Below are positions 19,563 through 34,008 of a stretch of DNA of 34,008 nucleotides, one piece after another. The notes below the pieces were generated by a model. The model ran no database searches, had not been told where the DNA came from, and saw only the letters and a list, made by a program, of their open reading frames with translations. The translations under genes and the position numbers were made by a program. The stretch's first letter is position 1. Each line of letters begins with the position of its first letter. The stretch is taken from positions 70,046 through 104,053 of the forward strand of contig NZ_QGKM01000006.1 of the NCBI RefSeq assembly GCF_003172875.1. The letters run 5' to 3'. The stretch comes from Leucothrix pacifica (GTDB taxonomy: Bacteria > Pseudomonadota > Gammaproteobacteria > Thiotrichales > Thiotrichaceae).

Positions 19563-19696
19563 TAAACAGACCATCACTCGCTTAAAAATACGTCATATTA
19601 GAGCGCAGACTGAGTATTTTAGTAGGCAGGACTCTTTACTCTGCTTCTTAATACAGTGTATGGTTGCCACAAATTTATAACCATGACTGATAGAAT

Positions 19697-22324
19697 ATGA
19701 GCGAAAGTCTTGTCATTGTAGAATCACCTGCTAAAGCAAAAACAATCGAAAAATACTTGGGCAAGGACTTTGAAGTCTTGGCTTCGTACGGTCACGTGCG
19801 CGATTTAATCCCTAAGACGGGTGCAATCGACACCGATGACGACTTTGCGATGCACTATCAGTTGATTGACCGCAACAAAAAGCACGTTGATAAAATCGTA
19901 AAATCGCTTAAGAAAGCCAAAAATCTCTATCTCGCGACCGACCCCGATAGAGAGGGAGAAGCAATCTCCTGGCACTTATACGAGTATCTTAAAGAGAATA
20001 ACTTATTAAAAGATAAGGATGTCTCGCGTGTTGTTTTCTATGAAATCACCAAAAAAGCCGTTCAGGATGCAGTAGCCAACCCTAGAGATCTGGCAATGCC
20101 GATGATTGATGCGCAGCAAGCGCGAAGAGCATTGGACTATCTGGTTGGTTTCAATCTCTCCCCTTTATTATGGAAGAAGATCAAACCAAGCCTGTCGGCA
20201 GGACGTGTTCAAAGTCCGGCCCTGCGAATGATTGTGGAGCGTGAGGAAGAGATCGAAAAGTTCATTCCTCAGGAATATTGGACAATCGACGCCAGTGTTG
20301 AAAAAGACAAGCAACCTTTTACGGCCAAACTACATACTCTGGGTGGCAAGAACCTCAAGCAGTTCGATCTTAATAATACCGAACTGGCAATGGCGGCTAA
20401 AGGCACGTTGGTTAATGATTCGGGCATTGTAATTAACGCTGACGGCGAGACAACCACACCCGGCAAGCTCACCGTCACCCGACTCGAAAAGAAACAACGT
20501 AAGCGCCACCCTTCTGCACCGTTTACAACATCAACATTGCAGCAGGAAGCATCACGCAAACTGCGCTTTACCACTCGCAGAACCATGAGTGTTGCACAGC
20601 AACTCTATGAAGGAATCGACTTAGGTGATGGTGCAGTTGGTTTGATCACCTATATGCGTACTGACTCCGTGGCTTTGGCAAACGATGCAGTTGAAGATGT
20701 ACGTGGTCTGATTGATCAACGCTATGGCGCTACAGCAGTCAACCCTGAGGTGCGGACTTTCAAAACTAAGTCCAAAAACGCTCAGGAAGCTCACGAGGCC
20801 ATTCGCCCGACCTCGGCTGGCAATGTGCCGGATGAAATCAAGCAGCACCTCACTGATGAGCAATACAAGCTGTATGATCTGATCTGGAAACGTACAGTAG
20901 CCTGCCAAATGATCCATGCGACTCTGGATACTGTCTCTGCCGACTTATCATGCAGTGAAGGCAACTTCTTCAGAGCAACAGGCTCTGCAGTGCGTGACCC
21001 CGGGTTTATGTCGGTCTATCAGGAAAGTAATGACTCTGACAGCGACGAGAAAAAAGAAAAGACTGATGACAGTAAAGATCGCATCCTGCCTCTTATGGAA
21101 GAAGGCGACGTTATCGACTTAAATGCGATTTCTGCTGATCAACACTTCACTGATCCACCACCTCGCTTCTCAGAAGCTAGTTTGGTTAAAACGCTTGAAG
21201 AGTATGACATTGGACGCCCATCAACCTATGCAAGCATCATCTCAACACTGCAATCACGTGAATATGTAGAGCTGGAATCACGTCGTTTCTACCCTACCGA
21301 CATTGGTCGTATCGTGAACCGATTCCTGACTCAGCATTTCACTCAGTACGTGGATTATAACTTCACTGCTAATCTGGAAAATGAATTGGATGAGATCTCT
21401 CGTGGCGAGAAAGACTGGATTCCTGTGATGGATGCATTCTGGAAGCCATTCCACGAGCTGGTCGAGGACAAAGATAAGTCCGTCACACGTGAAGAAGTCA
21501 TGCAAGCACGTGTATTGGGTACTGATGAAAAAACGGGTAAGCCGGTATCTGTGCGCATGGGTCGATATGGACCGTTTGTACAAATTGGTCACCGTGATGA
21601 TGAAGAAAAGCCACAGTTTGCAAGCCTACGCCCCGGCCAGAAAATGGATAGTGTCACCTACGAAGATGCAATGGAACTATTCAAGCTGCCACGTGCACTC
21701 GGTGAGACCGAAGAAGGGGAAGCGATTAGTACTAACTTCGGTCGTTTTGGGCCCTATGTTAAGTACGGCAGCAAGTTTGTCTCTTTACCCAAAGACAACA
21801 ACGACCCTTACACCGTTACACTTGAACAGGCACTCGAACTGATTGCCGCGAAGAAAAAGGCTGATGCTGAGAAGCTGATTCAGGATTACCCTGATGAGGG
21901 CATACAGGTACTGAATGGTCGCTGGGGCCCTTACGTTACTGACAAAAACAAAAATGCACGAGTCCCGAAAGACGTTGATGCAAAAACATTGACCCTAGAG
22001 GATTGTGTAAAAATGTTGGCAGAAGCCCCTGAGCGTAAAGGTCGGGGAAAGAAAGCGGCAGCGAAGAAACCTGCTGCGAAGAAGGCACCGGCCAAAAAAG
22101 CGGCTGCTAAAAAACCTGCCACTAAGAAAACGGCAGCAAAAAAAGCTCCGGCGAAGAAAGCGACAGCCAAGAAAGCCGCGACTAAAACGGCAACCAAGAA
22201 GGCACCAGCCAAAACAACGGCCACTAAAAAACCAGCCACAAAGAAAGCAAGCACTAAGACAGCAGCATCAAAAAAAGCAGCTGAATCAAAGGATGCTGGT
22301 GACGGCGACTCTGCTGCAAGTTAG
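19697..22324 (+). CDS. topA: DNA topoisomerase I
   Basis: An 875-residue type IA topoisomerase that relaxes negative supercoils. The Toprim domain is intact (IVESPAKAKTIEKYLG with Glu9; TDPDREGEAISWH, 81-93), and the catalytic tyrosine is Tyr319 in LITYMRTDS, the same number as in E. coli. The C-terminus differs from the E. coli type: there are no Cys4 zinc ribbons, but instead repeats containing GRYGPFV, GRFGPYV and GRWGPYV, then a Lys/Ala/Pro-rich tail of about 85 residues. That plan resembles topoisomerase I of other bacterial groups, including mycobacteria in having a basic tail. It is followed by tsaC after 5 bp. Confidence 0.97.
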   Translation: MSESLVIVESPAKAKTIEKYLGKDFEVLASYGHVRDLIPKTGAIDTDDDFAMHYQLIDRNKKHVDKIVKSLKKAKNLYLATDPDREGEAISWHLYEYLKENNLLKDKDVSRVVFYEITKKAVQDAVANPRDLAMPMIDAQQARRALDYLVGFNLSPLLWKKIKPSLSAGRVQSPALRMIVEREEEIEKFIPQEYWTIDASVEKDKQPFTAKLHTLGGKNLKQFDLNNTELAMAAKGTLVNDSGIVINADGETTTPGKLTVTRLEKKQRKRHPSAPFTTSTLQQEASRKLRFTTRRTMSVAQQLYEGIDLGDGAVGLITYMRTDSVALANDAVEDVRGLIDQRYGATAVNPEVRTFKTKSKNAQEAHEAIRPTSAGNVPDEIKQHLTDEQYKLYDLIWKRTVACQMIHATLDTVSADLSCSEGNFFRATGSAVRDPGFMSVYQESNDSDSDEKKEKTDDSKDRILPLMEEGDVIDLNAISADQHFTDPPPRFSEASLVKTLEEYDIGRPSTYASIISTLQSREYVELESRRFYPTDIGRIVNRFLTQHFTQYVDYNFTANLENELDEISRGEKDWIPVMDAFWKPFHELVEDKDKSVTREEVMQARVLGTDEKTGKPVSVRMGRYGPFVQIGHRDDEEKPQFASLRPGQKMDSVTYEDAMELFKLPRALGETEEGEAISTNFGRFGPYVKYGSKFVSLPKDNNDPYTVTLEQALELIAAKKKADAEKLIQDYPDEGIQVLNGRWGPYVTDKNKNARVPKDVDAKTLTLEDCVKMLAEAPERKGRGKKAAAKKPAAKKAPAKKAAAKKPATKKTAAKKAPAKKATAKKAATKTATKKAPAKTTATKKPATKKASTKTAASKKAAESKDAGDGDSAAS
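22040..22290 (+). repeat. low-complexity Lys/Ala tail of topA
   Basis: Imperfect short repeats encode AAKKPAAKKAPAKK-like units over about 83 residues at the C-terminal end of topoisomerase I. The sequence resembles histone-H1-like basic tails and probably binds DNA non-specifically. The antisense frames stay open here only because of the composition. Confidence 0.85.
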
Positions 22325-29716: not shown

Positions 29717-30205
29717 ATGGCAGAAGAACAAGCCGCCGCAACAACTGCTCAGGAAGAACCACAATTCGTTATTGAGCGCATCTATCTAAAAGATGTTTCG
29801 TTTGAATCACCAGGCAGCCCTGCTGTTTTTACTAAAGAGTGGAACCCGGACACAAACCTGCAGCTAAACACTCAGGTCAACCCACTGTCTGACGGCCATT
29901 ACGAAGTTGAGCTCATGATTACAATTACCGTGAAGAGCAACGATGAAACTGCGTTCTTGGTTGAAGTGACTCAAGCGGGTGTGTTCAAGATTACTGGATA
30001 TCCACCAGAGCAGCTTAACCACTTATTAGCCAGCTACTGCCCTAGTAACTTATTCCCTTATGCAAGAGAAGCGATTGCAAGCCTGATCTCTAAAGGTAGC
30101 TTCCCTGAAATGCATCTTTCACCGATTAACTTCGATGCACTATATGCACAGCGTCAGGAAGAAGAAGCAAAAGCGAATGCAAATGGTGGTCAGGCTGAGG
30201 CTTAA
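29717..30205 (+). CDS. secB: protein-export chaperone SecB
   Basis: A 162-residue chaperone that keeps exported preproteins unfolded and hands them to SecA. Family segments are FVIERIYLKDVSFESPGSP, NTQVNPLSDGHYEVELMITITVK and the C-terminal YCPSNLFPYAREAIASLISKGSFPEMHLSPINFDALYA. AAGGA precedes the ATG. Its stop overlaps the gpsA ATG by one base (TAATG), so translation is coupled. Confidence 0.97.
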   Translation: MAEEQAAATTAQEEPQFVIERIYLKDVSFESPGSPAVFTKEWNPDTNLQLNTQVNPLSDGHYEVELMITITVKSNDETAFLVEVTQAGVFKITGYPPEQLNHLLASYCPSNLFPYAREAIASLISKGSFPEMHLSPINFDALYAQRQEEEAKANANGGQAEA

Positions 30206-31212
30206 TGTCGACGCGACCTGACACCTTTTCAGTGTACGGAGCCGGTTCCTGGGGAACGGCTCTGGCACTGCAACTCGCCAGAAATGGTATTGATGTAAAG
30301 CTATGGGGGCATCGTCCTTCTCAACTTGAGCAATACAATGCAGCACGAGAGAATACTGATTACCTATCAGGCATTCCATTTCCAGACACACTTCACTGTG
30401 AACAATCACTGGAAGCACTGGTAGACCACAGTCTTTATCAGCTAATTGTTGTACCCAGCCATGGCTTCAGAGCCTTACTCGAACAACTCCAACCTCTGCT
30501 TAGCTCACAGCACAAAATACTCTGGGCAACTAAAGGCTTGGAATTGAAGACTGGCAAACTGCTACACGAGTTAGTCGAAGACATTCTTCCGCAAACATCT
30601 CACTACGGTTTAGTATCCGGCCCTACCTTCGCTGCAGAAGTGGCAAGTGGCTTACCAACCGCCATGACTGTTGCTGCTAATGATGAAACACTTACCCAGA
30701 CTGTATCCGCTGCATTCCAATCCGAAAACTATCGCGTTTATACCAGCGACGACATCATTGGCGTCGAACTTGGCGGTGCGGTAAAGAACGTGTTGGCTAT
30801 CGCAGCCGGCATCACTGACGGACTTGGCTTTGGAGCAAACGCCCGCACTGCATTGATCACTCGTGGTTTAGCAGAGATTATGCGCTTAGGTACGACATTG
30901 GGCGCTAAAGCTGAAACACTGATGGGACTGGCAGGTATTGGCGATCTCATCTTAACTTGTACGGATGATCAATCCCGTAATCGACAACTTGGACTTGCGC
31001 TAGGTGCGGGAAAAACACTGGAACAAGCCATCGAAGATATTGGACAAGCGGTAGAAGGGGCTAAAACATCACAGAGCATTAACCTGCTCGCTAAACGTGT
31101 GGATGTTGAGATGCCTATCTGCACCGCTGTTCAGCAGATTCTGTACGAAGGACTACCTCCTCAGGAAGCTGTTCGGGCGCTTATTTCGCGTAAGCCAAAA
31201 CCAGAATTTTAA
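30205..31212 (+). CDS. gpsA: glycerol-3-phosphate dehydrogenase [NAD(P)+]
   Basis: A 335-residue enzyme that reduces dihydroxyacetone phosphate to sn-glycerol 3-phosphate for phospholipid synthesis. It has the nucleotide loop GAGSWGTALALQLARNG, WATKGLE, SGPTFAAEVASGLPTA, the catalytic Lys in GGAVKNVLAIAAGI, and GLAGIGDLILTCTDDQSRNR. It overlaps the secB stop by one base and ends the conserved grxC-secB-gpsA block. Confidence 0.97.
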   Translation: MSTRPDTFSVYGAGSWGTALALQLARNGIDVKLWGHRPSQLEQYNAARENTDYLSGIPFPDTLHCEQSLEALVDHSLYQLIVVPSHGFRALLEQLQPLLSSQHKILWATKGLELKTGKLLHELVEDILPQTSHYGLVSGPTFAAEVASGLPTAMTVAANDETLTQTVSAAFQSENYRVYTSDDIIGVELGGAVKNVLAIAAGITDGLGFGANARTALITRGLAEIMRLGTTLGAKAETLMGLAGIGDLILTCTDDQSRNRQLGLALGAGKTLEQAIEDIGQAVEGAKTSQSINLLAKRVDVEMPICTAVQQILYEGLPPQEAVRALISRKPKPEF

Positions 31213-31328: not shown

Positions 31329-31532
31329 ATGCTAGACGATTTGAACATGAGTGATGCGGTAAGACTTGCATCAGGTGTATTAATTTTTATTTGCGCAATT
31401 CTTACAATGATCAGCTCAGGCTTCATCTGGTTACTGGTAATCGTTGGTGCGGTAATCATGCAATCTGCATTCACTGGCTTTTGCCCGATTACAATGTTAT
31501 TCCAAAAGTTGAACTTGTTTACTGATAAGTAA
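31329..31532 (+). CDS. DUF2892 small inner-membrane protein
   Basis: A 67-residue protein with two hydrophobic segments (LASGVLIFICAILTMIS and FIWLLVIVGAVIMQSAF) and the DUF2892 hallmark FTGFCPITMLFQKL. The same domain forms the membrane part of the E. coli rhodanese YgaP; here it stands alone, 1.9 kb after a separate rhodanese gene. AAGGAG lies eight bases before the ATG. It ends 50 bp before a strong terminator. The function is not established. Confidence 0.85.
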   Translation: MLDDLNMSDAVRLASGVLIFICAILTMISSGFIWLLVIVGAVIMQSAFTGFCPITMLFQKLNLFTDK

Positions 31533-31582: not shown

Positions 31583-31612
31583 AAAAAAAGGGACTCGTTT
31601 GAGTCCCTTTTT
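31583..31612 (+). terminator. intrinsic terminator after the DUF2892 gene
   Basis: A perfect stem GGGACTC / GAGTCCC with loop GTTT is extended by A/T pairs and followed by TTTTT. It lies 50 bp after the DUF2892 stop and closes the plus-strand block. The flanking A-run could also let it work on the minus strand. Confidence 0.92.
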
Positions 31613-31825
31613 ATAATATCTCATCCAGAAGACTTTAAACCACTCTCTAGCTCCAAAGCCATGCATATAACCCCATCAACTTATTAAAGACTCATCAGAA
31701 CACTTCCAACTAGCTTTGCAACCATTTCAGATAAAAAAAGTATAATAAGCTTGATATAAAAAATTAACCCCCAATATTTCATCAAACCTAGAAACTTCTA
31801 AGAACTAAGATCACTGGAGCCTCAC
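31613..31825. other. AT-rich intergenic boundary
   Basis: About 210 bp without a convincing gene, clearly richer in A and T than the DNA to the left. It holds a perfect TATAAT at 31741-31746, with TTGCAA at 31716-31721 as a possible -35, although the 19-base spacer is long. The change of composition marks where the acquired right-hand segment probably begins. Confidence 0.5.
31716..31746 (+). promoter_or_regulatory. candidate promoter of the nuclease-NTPase gene
   Basis: TATAAT (31741-31746) is a perfect -10 element, 80 bases before the TTG start. TTGCAA at 31716-31721 is a possible -35, but the 19-base spacing is longer than the optimum, so only the -10 is convincing. Confidence 0.3.
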
Positions 31826-34008
31826 TTGAAAATTGAAGTAGCTGTACCACAAAAGGCCACAACAAAAGTTAAGGGAGACCTTCTTGAAAATATCGCTAAG
31901 AAACTTTTAGAAGCTCAGAATTATGAAGTTGAGCAAGAAGTTCGAAATACAGGAGTTGAAGTAGACCTTTTATGTCAAAGTAAGACCAATAATAACAAGA
32001 AAATCTCTGTTGAATGTAAGGCCTATAGAGATAAAAAAATTGATTCCGGAATCATCGACAAAATGCTTGGAGTTAAGTCACGGAAAAAGTATGCAGAAGC
32101 TTGGCTCATAACAACTAGCAGCTTAGGAAAAGATGCTAAAGGGATAATGGAGGAACTCCTTGAAGAAGGAAATTGTGACGTGCACATCTTTACTCCCGAG
32201 AAACTCATGCGTGCATTAGTTGATACTAATGTCATTGTTAGCATTGATATTCCTAAATCGAAAGTTTTAAATAACTATAGCGAAAATCAAATTTTTGATG
32301 AGGTTCTTCTTGTAACACCTAAAGGTTATTTCTGGGCCTTCTCTACCTCAAAGACGGGAAAAGCTGAGTTGGTCTTATTATTTGATGCAACTAATGGCCA
32401 AATGATTGTTCAGCACGAATTATTATATGAAGTTCAGATGCTAGACTCATCGCTAACGAACTTAGAATTCCCCTCAGAAGTAGGCATCTCAAGTACGAAT
32501 AACAGTGAAGAACCATGTAAGTTCAATCATGACTATTATCTAAAAACTTTAGATACCGGAGTTAAGTACACTCACCCCGACAAAAATATTATAAATGTCG
32601 ATGATATTTTCATATATCAAGACTTACAAGTATTAAATGAAGACAAGGAAATAAACTCCAGTAAAATTATAGTCAAAAATAATGAAAAACATCGATTATT
32701 TATATTCGGAAATGAACTATCCGGAAAAACTACTCTTGCATACAATATCCAAAGAAAAGTAATAAAAAATGGATTAATACCTGTTTATATAAATGCAGCT
32801 GGAATATCATCATCTGACATCAAGAAAATTGAAAAACTAGTAAAAAGAAAAATAATAGAACAATATGAAAATCCAATCACTATAAATTCTAATAAAAATA
32901 TAGACGAAAAAATAGTTTTAATTATAGATGATTTTCACACAATCAAGACAAACAATGGATCAACTGTAAAAGTAATTAATATTCTAAATGAAAAATACAG
33001 TAAGATTATTTTCTTTTCTAATTCAAGCAGAGAACTTAAGCTATTAATTGACAATGATTTAAATGATGCTTTGTCTAGCTACGATTTCTATAAAATAAAA
33101 GAACTTGGCTACAAACTTAGAGATGAAATAATAAAGAAATGGGTCTCAATAGGAAGAGATGAAACAATAGGTGACAACGAAAAATATACAAGAACAATTG
33201 AACTAGCAAATACAATAGATGTTACTGTCGGCAAGAACTTTGTACCAACATATCCCATTTACATACTGACTCTTCTGCAGTCATTTGAAGCATCGTCAGC
33301 AAAAACCTTGCAAGGTAGTGCTTATGCAGAGTTTTATAATTACTTGATTACGCAGTCTTTGGGTTCAATTGGAATTAAGCCTACGGAGCTTCACCTTTAC
33401 TTTAGCTTTCTCTCGGAACTTGCCTACTTTTTCTTTGACAAGAGTACTAAAGAAATATCTGAAACCGAACTAGAGTCATTTCATGTAAAATACTGTGAAA
33501 ATAAGATGATAAACTCTAACTTTGACCGACTAAGGAACAATCTCCTAAAATCTAAAATTCTAAAAGAAGAAATCGGTTCATTTTCCTTTAACCATAATTA
33601 CATCTATTACTTCTTTGCTGCCAAAAACCTGTCTGACCACATCGACAATGAAAACATCAGAGAACAAGTAAAAAAAATAACACAAAGATTATACAGAACT
33701 GAATTCGCCAATATTATTATATTTCTGGTTCATTTCACAAAAAACAAATTAGTCCTAAACGGAATAATTAATCAAGCAAAATCAACATTCTCTGAAATCA
33801 ACATTGCAACATTCTCCAAAGAAGAATTCGAAAACATAAATAAACTCATAAATCAAGAAATAAATATATTCATCGAAGACAAAAAGGTAGAAGAGTCTCG
33901 CGCCGAGGAGTTAACTTTAAAAGATAAAGCCCAAGGCAATGAAACTAACGAGTCTAACGACCCAGCAATAAAATATGATGAAGATATAAAAGAGCTATGG
34001 TCAAGAGT
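31826..34008 (+). CDS. Mrr-like nuclease fused to STAND/NACHT-like NTPase, partial
   Basis: The frame is open from TTG (31826) to the right edge (727 codons, C-terminus missing). GGAG lies six bases before the TTG, an in-frame TAA is at 31799, and the first in-frame ATG is about 80 codons inside, so TTG is the likely start. Residues 1-135 fit an Mrr-type PD-(D/E)xK nuclease: Glu21, VEVDLL (Asp47), VECKAY (Glu63, Lys65) and AEAWLITTSSLGKDA. Residues about 136-285 are unrecognised. Then comes a P-loop NTPase with Walker A GNELSGKT (295-302), Walker B IVLIIDDFH (Asp368/369), a sensor-like IIFFSNSSRE, and the NACHT/STAND-like helical motif FNHNYIYYFFAAKNL (588-602). Such nuclease-STAND proteins are antiphage sensors (Avs, bNACHT groups). 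AT-rich codons suggest transfer. Which subfamily it belongs to is unclear. Confidence 0.85.
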   Translation, partial: MKIEVAVPQKATTKVKGDLLENIAKKLLEAQNYEVEQEVRNTGVEVDLLCQSKTNNNKKISVECKAYRDKKIDSGIIDKMLGVKSRKKYAEAWLITTSSLGKDAKGIMEELLEEGNCDVHIFTPEKLMRALVDTNVIVSIDIPKSKVLNNYSENQIFDEVLLVTPKGYFWAFSTSKTGKAELVLLFDATNGQMIVQHELLYEVQMLDSSLTNLEFPSEVGISSTNNSEEPCKFNHDYYLKTLDTGVKYTHPDKNIINVDDIFIYQDLQVLNEDKEINSSKIIVKNNEKHRLFIFGNELSGKTTLAYNIQRKVIKNGLIPVYINAAGISSSDIKKIEKLVKRKIIEQYENPITINSNKNIDEKIVLIIDDFHTIKTNNGSTVKVINILNEKYSKIIFFSNSSRELKLLIDNDLNDALSSYDFYKIKELGYKLRDEIIKKWVSIGRDETIGDNEKYTRTIELANTIDVTVGKNFVPTYPIYILTLLQSFEASSAKTLQGSAYAEFYNYLITQSLGSIGIKPTELHLYFSFLSELAYFFFDKSTKEISETELESFHVKYCENKMINSNFDRLRNNLLKSKILKEEIGSFSFNHNYIYYFFAAKNLSDHIDNENIREQVKKITQRLYRTEFANIIIFLVHFTKNKLVLNGIINQAKSTFSEINIATFSKEEFENINKLINQEINIFIEDKKVEESRAEELTLKDKAQGNETNESNDPAIKYDEDIKELWSR

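Follow-up and report, generated by a model that had tools for sequence, protein, structure and literature searches.

A probable DS-8/PDC-S60-family anti-phage receptor gene of Leucothrix pacifica with an Mrr-type nuclease head, interrupted by an IS256-like element

In this work we describe a putative anti-phage receptor gene at the right end of a 34,008-nucleotide stretch of the Leucothrix pacifica genome. The whole stretch (C103:70046-104053) is here called the window; it is part of a draft of 5.02 Mb in 146 contigs, and its contig terminates at window base 34008. Labels beginning with G, C and L are our own for genomes, contigs and loci. The window ends in a TTG-initiated frame on the forward strand (31826-34006, 727 codons), open at the right edge, which encodes an Mrr-type nuclease joined to a STAND NTPase core and which is broken by an insertion element (Table 1). 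Its TTG agrees with the annotated start of a relative in Burkholderia and with an open reading frame (ORF) start in an unannotated stretch of an Acinetobacter record.

Table 1. The receptor gene, the element that breaks it and the flanks of the site. Positions are in the window unless a contig is named; pLDDT, predicted local distance difference test score.
Feature	Position	Strand	Basis
5' part of the Mrr-nuclease/STAND receptor gene, 722 codons; 3' part at C83:20-679, same genome	31826-33991	+	
GGAG, likely ribosome-binding site ahead of the TTG	31816-31819	+	sequence; start agrees with relatives
N-terminal effector module, residues 1-215; common to proteins with another STAND NTPase	31826-32470	+	
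Mrr_cat nuclease domain, residues 15-110	31868-32155	+	Pfam 45.2 bits, cut-off 21
Catalytic codons D47, E63 and K65	31964-31966, 32012-32014, 32018-32020	+	
Effector module, second part (residues 136-215), without Pfam match; in relatives it is kept alongside the nuclease	32231-32470	+	
DS-8/PDC-S60-type STAND (NACHT-like) core	32531-33991	+	NCBIfam, PADLOC, AlphaFold2 pLDDT 80.4
Walker A GNELSGKT, residues 295-302	32708-32731	+	
Walker B IVLIIDDFH, residues 363-371	32912-32938	+	
nSTAND_NTPase4 (PF24406), residues 542-598	33449-33619	+	Pfam 50.6 bits, cut-off 27
Left copy of the 9-base target duplication; right copy C83:20-28	33983-33991	+	
First 17 bases of the IS256-like element, where gene and assembly are broken; other end C83:1-19	33992-34008	+	
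gpsA, left flank of the variable site	30205-31212	+	name from translation
Small membrane-protein gene, 67 amino acids, kept after gpsA in the genus	31329-31532	+	
Terminator-like stem-loop past the small gene; bounds the variable insert on the left	31590-31607	+	
purL, right flank	C83:763-4656	-	name from translation

The domains of the protein are identified, and their catalytic and Walker residues are intact. D47, E63 and K65 are invariant in all six aligned modules, so that the catalytic D-ExK is kept, and G300, K301 and D368 are invariant in all eight core rows. A YIYYFFAAKNL motif lies at the nSTAND_NTPase4 match and extends to 33631. The Pfam NACHT model reaches 13.6 bits on this protein, under its cut-off of 26.7. 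An earlier reading of this DNA, made from the sequence only, had proposed a single TTG frame joining a PD-(D/E)xK nuclease to a STAND/NACHT-like NTPase, and the domain matches bear this out.

The core can be assigned to a family. The NCBIfam model DS8_antiphage (NF053861) matches residues 223-713 with 455 bits (model positions 300-794 of 994), and its best E-value of 4.3e-136 leaves no room for a chance match. The same model matches the part of the gene on contig C83 at C83:20-610 (model positions 797-994); a match over model positions 799-994 there scores 182 bits. The cut-off is 790 bits, and the two pieces stay under it. The PADLOC model PDC-S60 covers residues 243-713 with 260 bits. Residues 1-222 fall outside the NF053861 match; Mrr_cat is found there and Pfam finds no metallophosphatase. 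Thus a homologous core and a homologous C-terminal part of DS-8 are present, and a metallophosphatase head, a score above the cut-off and an uninterrupted gene are absent. Avs and bNACHT proteins were the first candidates for membership, and PADLOC and NCBIfam indicate DS-8/PDC-S60 instead. The sequence-only reading could name no subfamily and supposed an undescribed variant; since the subfamily can be named, only the combination of effector and core looks undescribed. According to the main text of PMC13092281, DS-8 combines a metallophosphatase and a NACHT domain in one protein and has validated anti-phage activity; mutation of either effector or NACHT residues abolishes defence, and the substrate of the enzyme is not established. 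We found no description of an Mrr nuclease combined with a DS-8 core in the literature searched, and the word Mrr is absent from the main text of PMC13092281. In that study 31 further systems were validated as well, of which 13 contain PD-(D/E)XK domains and 7 contain P-loop NTPases, so some overlap with the gene described here is possible.

AlphaFold2 models were built from 30 sequences for the core and from 4 for the N-terminal module; the core sequence in the models and trees took in at most 5 residues originating from the insertion element. The best solved-structure matches of the core model are NACHT proteins, namely NLRC4 (E 3e-9, template modelling score (TM-score) 0.36, root-mean-square deviation (rmsd) 12.9) and also NLRP3, with Avs4 bound to phage portal at rank 29 (E 4e-6). 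VIA-align gives NOD2 at Z 15.2 (rmsd 9.6, 366 aligned) and an ORC-type AAA+ protein at Z 12.2. The fold of the core is therefore predicted to be NACHT-like. A sequence search of solved structures returned nothing relevant for the whole protein or the N-terminal module, and generic P-loop matches for the core.

Homologues of the core come from at least 62 loci on genome contigs and 12 on viral contigs, at least 74 in all, with near copies among them (L090/L091 and L126/L132). Among the matches listed (n=74), 37 carry a TIR head and 26 a metallophosphatase head in the fused protein, and 11 neither; the upstream frames of those 11 add 5 TIR and 1 metallophosphatase. The totals are then 42 TIR, 27 metallophosphatase, 5 loci without an assigned head (L077, L080, L103, L118 and L122, of which two, L103 and L122, run into the end of their contig) and no Mrr. 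At L121, L127, L128, L130 and L081 the TIR domain lies upstream in another frame or a separate ORF, as in split or frameshifted forms. Two cyanobacterial cores (L118:7408-10040 and L077:7357-10028) have no recognised fused head and are preceded by a small ORF of 168-182 amino acids, which may encode an adaptor for a trans-acting effector. The N-terminus of the metallophosphatase-headed L003 (G223) matches a PADLOC effector/endonuclease model with 57 bits, which hints that this metallophosphatase could cut nucleic acid.

The position of the window core among these receptors speaks to the origin of its head. Our larger tree holds 76 cores (46 TIR, 27 metallophosphatase, 2 without an assigned head and the window; L072, L077, L080, L091, L122 and L131 were left out). 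In it the window belongs to a starred set of five rows with four metallophosphatase receptors (Shimodaira-Hasegawa-like approximate likelihood ratio test 98), nested in a set of 27 rows whose other 26 members all carry metallophosphatase heads. A tree of 32 rows (19 metallophosphatase, 12 labelled TIR including L118, which has no assigned head, and the window) gives the five-row set a support of 100/99. With these 32 rows the approximately unbiased (AU) test rejects a grouping of the 19 metallophosphatase rows without the window (p 0.004, which is optimistic because the test was picked after the first tree). Among the matches listed, the nearest core relatives are from Lambdaproteobacteria and Campylobacterota, at 37-38% identity. 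Since the window core nests among metallophosphatase receptors, a metallophosphatase head has likely been replaced by the Mrr nuclease module.

The N-terminal module has relatives of a different kind. It matches seven plasmid records, four from Acinetobacter (44% identity, residues 1-215) and one each from Burkholderia (41%, 1-221), Fuscovulum (29%, 2-145) and Allocoleopsis (29%, 13-181), and it is found in the viral contigs L135-L137 (L136 and L137 are alike) and L157. In all four module carriers scanned with Pfam (Acinetobacter, Burkholderia, L135 and L136) the STAND partner is nSTAND1. The gene thus records a module exchange between two STAND lineages, with a sharp boundary at about residues 215-243. 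In L157 (6001-8751) the module-carrying gene has another STAND-like part and lies between replication and portal/terminase genes, named from their translations, a setting which we take to be a P2-like prophage.

A second nuclease-headed copy was sought and not found. One of 57 genomes was positive, namely the own genome; among 369 genomes of the class only the own genome, G223, G196 and G270 exceeded 400 bits, and Mrr was found only in the own genome; among 398 genomes of the phylum the full N-terminal module was again found only there. The search of phages for such a copy gave no match, and a search with the single protein confirmed no relative. The own genome holds a second, weakly similar P-loop protein (G000:C122:145-486, L169; 27 bits).

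The right end of the gene is explained by a mobile element. The last 17 bases of C103 occur in 16 exact copies in the own genome and the first 19 bases of C83 in 10, with none for the reversed-pattern controls, and each end is an imperfect inverted copy of the other (12 of 17 bases matching). All 22 end copies fetched (12 of the 16 left ends and the 10 right ends) sit at most about 180 bases from a contig end. For 7 of the 10 right ends a 9-base duplication could be paired with one of the 12 left ends fetched, the other 4 left ends lying outside this set, and C103/C83 is among the pairs. Element DNA adjoining another left-end copy (C48:1-175) matches four plasmid records at 73-76% identity, and in all four an IS256-family transposase is annotated at that DNA. 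Multicopy inverted ends, the duplication and the IS256-like DNA together indicate that one IS256-like copy inserted into the gene after codon 722. The element, with 16 left and 10 right ends, breaks the assembly at many places.

We considered whether the gene was merely cut by the contig end; an in-frame stop within the first 16 bases of C83 and multicopy element ends at both sides rule this out. The contig ends of C103 and C83 do not overlap. The sequence-only reading took the receptor frame to the end of the window, where bases 33992-34008 in fact belong to the element, and it advised obtaining the DNA to the right; the contig ends there, and the remainder of the gene was recovered on C83 beyond the inserted element, in a frame that ends at 679. 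As the two parts share one reading frame as far as the 9-base repeat, the gene had about 938 codons before the insertion. Because its product would lack the last ~216 residues, the window allele, interrupted near codon 722 and without its C-terminal part, is probably inactive. In a relative on a Paenisporosarcina plasmid the pieces of the DS-8 model lie in tandem (19640-21094, then 21104-21694).

The composition and the site of the gene support its acquisition. Its G+C content is 31.9% (36.3% in the N-terminal module and 29.8% in the core) versus 42.1-50.1% in the 26 window ORFs taken as genes. The receptor gene is the sole insert between gpsA and purL here, and we compared the site in six other genomes of the genus. 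The gap between gpsA and purL is about 376 bp in G003 and about 412 bp in G005, and holds the small gene, which we take to be DUF2892-like, and no receptor. G006 has a gap of about 3.3 kb (L052, G006:C2:100000-103700), which contains an HNH nuclease, a ParE toxin, a presumably acyltransferase-like gene and the small gene, a small variable locus; the ParE partner there is a weak ribbon-helix-helix match below cut-off. With the gap empty in two genomes and filled with other cargo in a third, the site varies within the genus. G002 has purL with a different neighbour, the fragments of G001 and G004 are uninformative for the site, and in the seven further family genomes that were checked, a long distance separates gpsA from purL or they are on separate contigs. 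The earlier suggestion of an acquired gene in AT-rich DNA beside housekeeping genes is therefore supported; of the strong terminator said to precede it, a terminator-like stem is present and the consensus scan does not list it. Promoter-like sites numbered 1 in the scan versus 1.9 in shuffles. Reading of the translations across the window and over the first 20 kb of C83 revealed no defence island; no family search was made of these genes. At the other end of the window, positions 3-932 on the reverse strand hold a frame with near-identical acidic repeats (VEEEKAEEVVAA), open at the left edge.

The sequence-only reading had also proposed to tabulate whether the neighbours of homologues are defence genes. 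Of 42 eligible loci, 34 were scanned, with 124 of the 167 ORFs that flank the core gene; we removed seven loci of viral origin, a near-duplicate and certain ORFs that were antisense or too long. The control was 102 ORFs, shorter on average, from 48 other loci. The neighbours match 244 PADLOC models (E<=1e-15), many of them redundant for the same ORF. The best 25 of the 244 are led by Type I methyltransferases (at most 4 ORFs per model) and by Type II (3) and Type III (2) methyltransferases, and include Type I restriction enzymes (2 ORFs) and SoFic (2). The control matches three models (mad2 with 2 ORFs, mad3 with 1 and HNH with 1), none of restriction-modification, and mads_2 gives no signal (3/124 neighbours versus 2/102 control ORFs). 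Homologues thus have restriction-modification neighbours which the control lacks, with small counts per model. Pfam matches on the neighbours, for which there is no control set, include phage integrases (6/124), ParE (2) and ordinary genes such as tRNA synthetases, and three TIR 'neighbours' may in truth be the separated heads of split systems. Among five annotated plasmid relatives of the core, those of Paenisporosarcina and Lactococcus have restriction-modification genes nearby; those of Vibrio, Streptococcus and Jeotgalibaca do not, an antirestriction protein and an SNF2-related protein being the exceptions.

Taken together, we would put at about three in four the probability that this is a single-gene anti-phage receptor of the DS-8/PDC-S60 STAND family whose metallophosphatase head was swapped for an Mrr-type endonuclease, and which has since been interrupted by an IS256-like element near codon 722. 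In the uninterrupted form the NACHT core would be autoinhibited. A phage-derived trigger would be sensed by the helical C-terminal part, after which the core would oligomerise, and the clustered nuclease domains would cut the DNA of the phage and probably also of the host, resulting in abortive infection. The present allele keeps effector and NTPase without the C-terminal part.

Several observations weigh against this interpretation. The sole nuclease-headed case that we found is a gene that has been broken, set against 0 of the 74 loci among the matches listed, and among 63 genomes of the order a strong core is found in the own genome and in G804, which is TIR-headed, with the N-terminal module only in the former. 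The 27th metallophosphatase row of the larger tree (L082) sits on a long branch on the TIR side, and the optimism of the AU test has been mentioned. The fold matches of the core have low TM-scores, as that of NLRC4, with ORC and other AAA+ proteins close behind, and the model of the N-terminal module, from its 4 sequences, has a pLDDT of 41.8. Furthermore, the Pfam family NA-iREase1, of NACHT-associated inactive restriction endonucleases, also matches residues 23-127 (35.7 bits, cut-off 27), raising the question whether the head keeps a restriction-endonuclease fold without activity and acts as a sensor or adaptor that binds DNA. The higher score of Mrr_cat and the invariance of its three catalytic residues make this unlikely.

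A different function is conceivable for an active nuclease. E. coli Mrr and McrBC are modification-dependent, and the presence of an Mrr-type domain might suggest an ATP-driven type IV restriction enzyme acting on direct recognition of DNA rather than of a phage ligand. In Mrr, however, an N-terminal DNA-recognition domain precedes the nuclease, whereas here the nuclease begins at residue 15 and Pfam lists no domain ahead of it. The NTPase is moreover of the DS-8 type with a NACHT-like model, and the same core bears TIR or metallophosphatase heads elsewhere, so we regard a type IV enzyme as highly improbable. Two further explanations concern the interruption. As the insertion falls past the NTPase and nSTAND_NTPase4 regions and leaves the effector and NTPase residues intact, a short receptor of effector and NTPase might still work or even be constitutively active. 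The lost part is nevertheless a conserved piece of the DS-8 model, and it sits where STAND receptors carry their sensor, as described in PMC12169576, and a functional short form is improbable. It might also be that only some of the sequenced cells carry the insertion, or that it is a misassembly, and that an intact gene exists, given that many of the 146 contigs are broken at copies of the same element. The assembly contains a single match and no uninterrupted copy, and a 9-base duplication at both sides is the mark of a real insertion, which makes an intact gene very unlikely.

If an interrupted receptor with an exchanged head is the correct interpretation, it offers some perspective on DS-8 itself. 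A natural chimera of a DS-8 core and a DNase-type head suggests that one head can be exchanged for another, and we tentatively propose, at somewhat less than even odds, a joint view of these receptors. The DS-8 core would be a general chassis for at least three unrelated heads (metallophosphatase, TIR and Mrr nuclease), and the gene in the window one exchange within the metallophosphatase branch. The chimera would also argue for direct damage to the cell by the original head, the DS-8 metallophosphatase being likelier to cut, for example, nucleic acids or nucleotides than to modulate a cyclic-nucleotide signal. The cost of carrying a DNase head may lie behind the interruption. A DNase-type head could provide a readout, the loss of DNA, for what the DS-8 core senses; given the broken state, this value is limited to an uninterrupted allele or a chimera.

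The likening of this gene to Avs and bNACHT proteins in the sequence-only reading was right about the kind of protein, as the core belongs to a validated anti-phage family and its model is NACHT-like; Avs is not the closest system. Avs proteins have a nuclease and STAND layout and Avs4 is among the fold matches of the core (TM-score 0.29), but they are far larger (1541 residues in the Avs4 chain), and no Avs model is among the PADLOC matches at E<=1, the presence of Avs models in that library being unchecked. bNACHT25 and bNACHT32 of clade 6 likewise combine an N-terminal PD-(D/E)XK DNase with NACHT; according to PMC12169576, D48A abolishes their defence and infection triggers DNA degradation. 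They differ by their NCH1 C-terminal domain, where the gene in the window has a DS-8-type core, a distinction drawn from their description and not from their sequences; Pfam scans of the window protein and the module carriers give no NCH1 match, and whether Pfam holds NCH1 was not checked. The Mrr-nSTAND1 proteins (Acinetobacter L035, Burkholderia pBVIE01 L034 and viral L135 and L136) share the N-terminal module at 37-44% identity, and unlike the window protein they have an nSTAND1 NTPase and a different C-terminal part. TIR-headed DS-8 relatives (e.g. L036, G196, G270 and G804) have the same core with a TIR effector and are on the other side of the tree, G804 being outside the trees. Mrr-like, calcineurin-type and TIR domains are among the variable effectors of other conflict systems listed in PMC7159879. 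DS-8 itself (DefensePredictor; NF053861; PDC-S60) resembles the gene in the window in its homologous STAND/NACHT core and C-terminal part and in having an N-terminal effector within a single protein; the gene described here differs from it by an Mrr-type nuclease in place of the metallophosphatase, in an allele that is interrupted.

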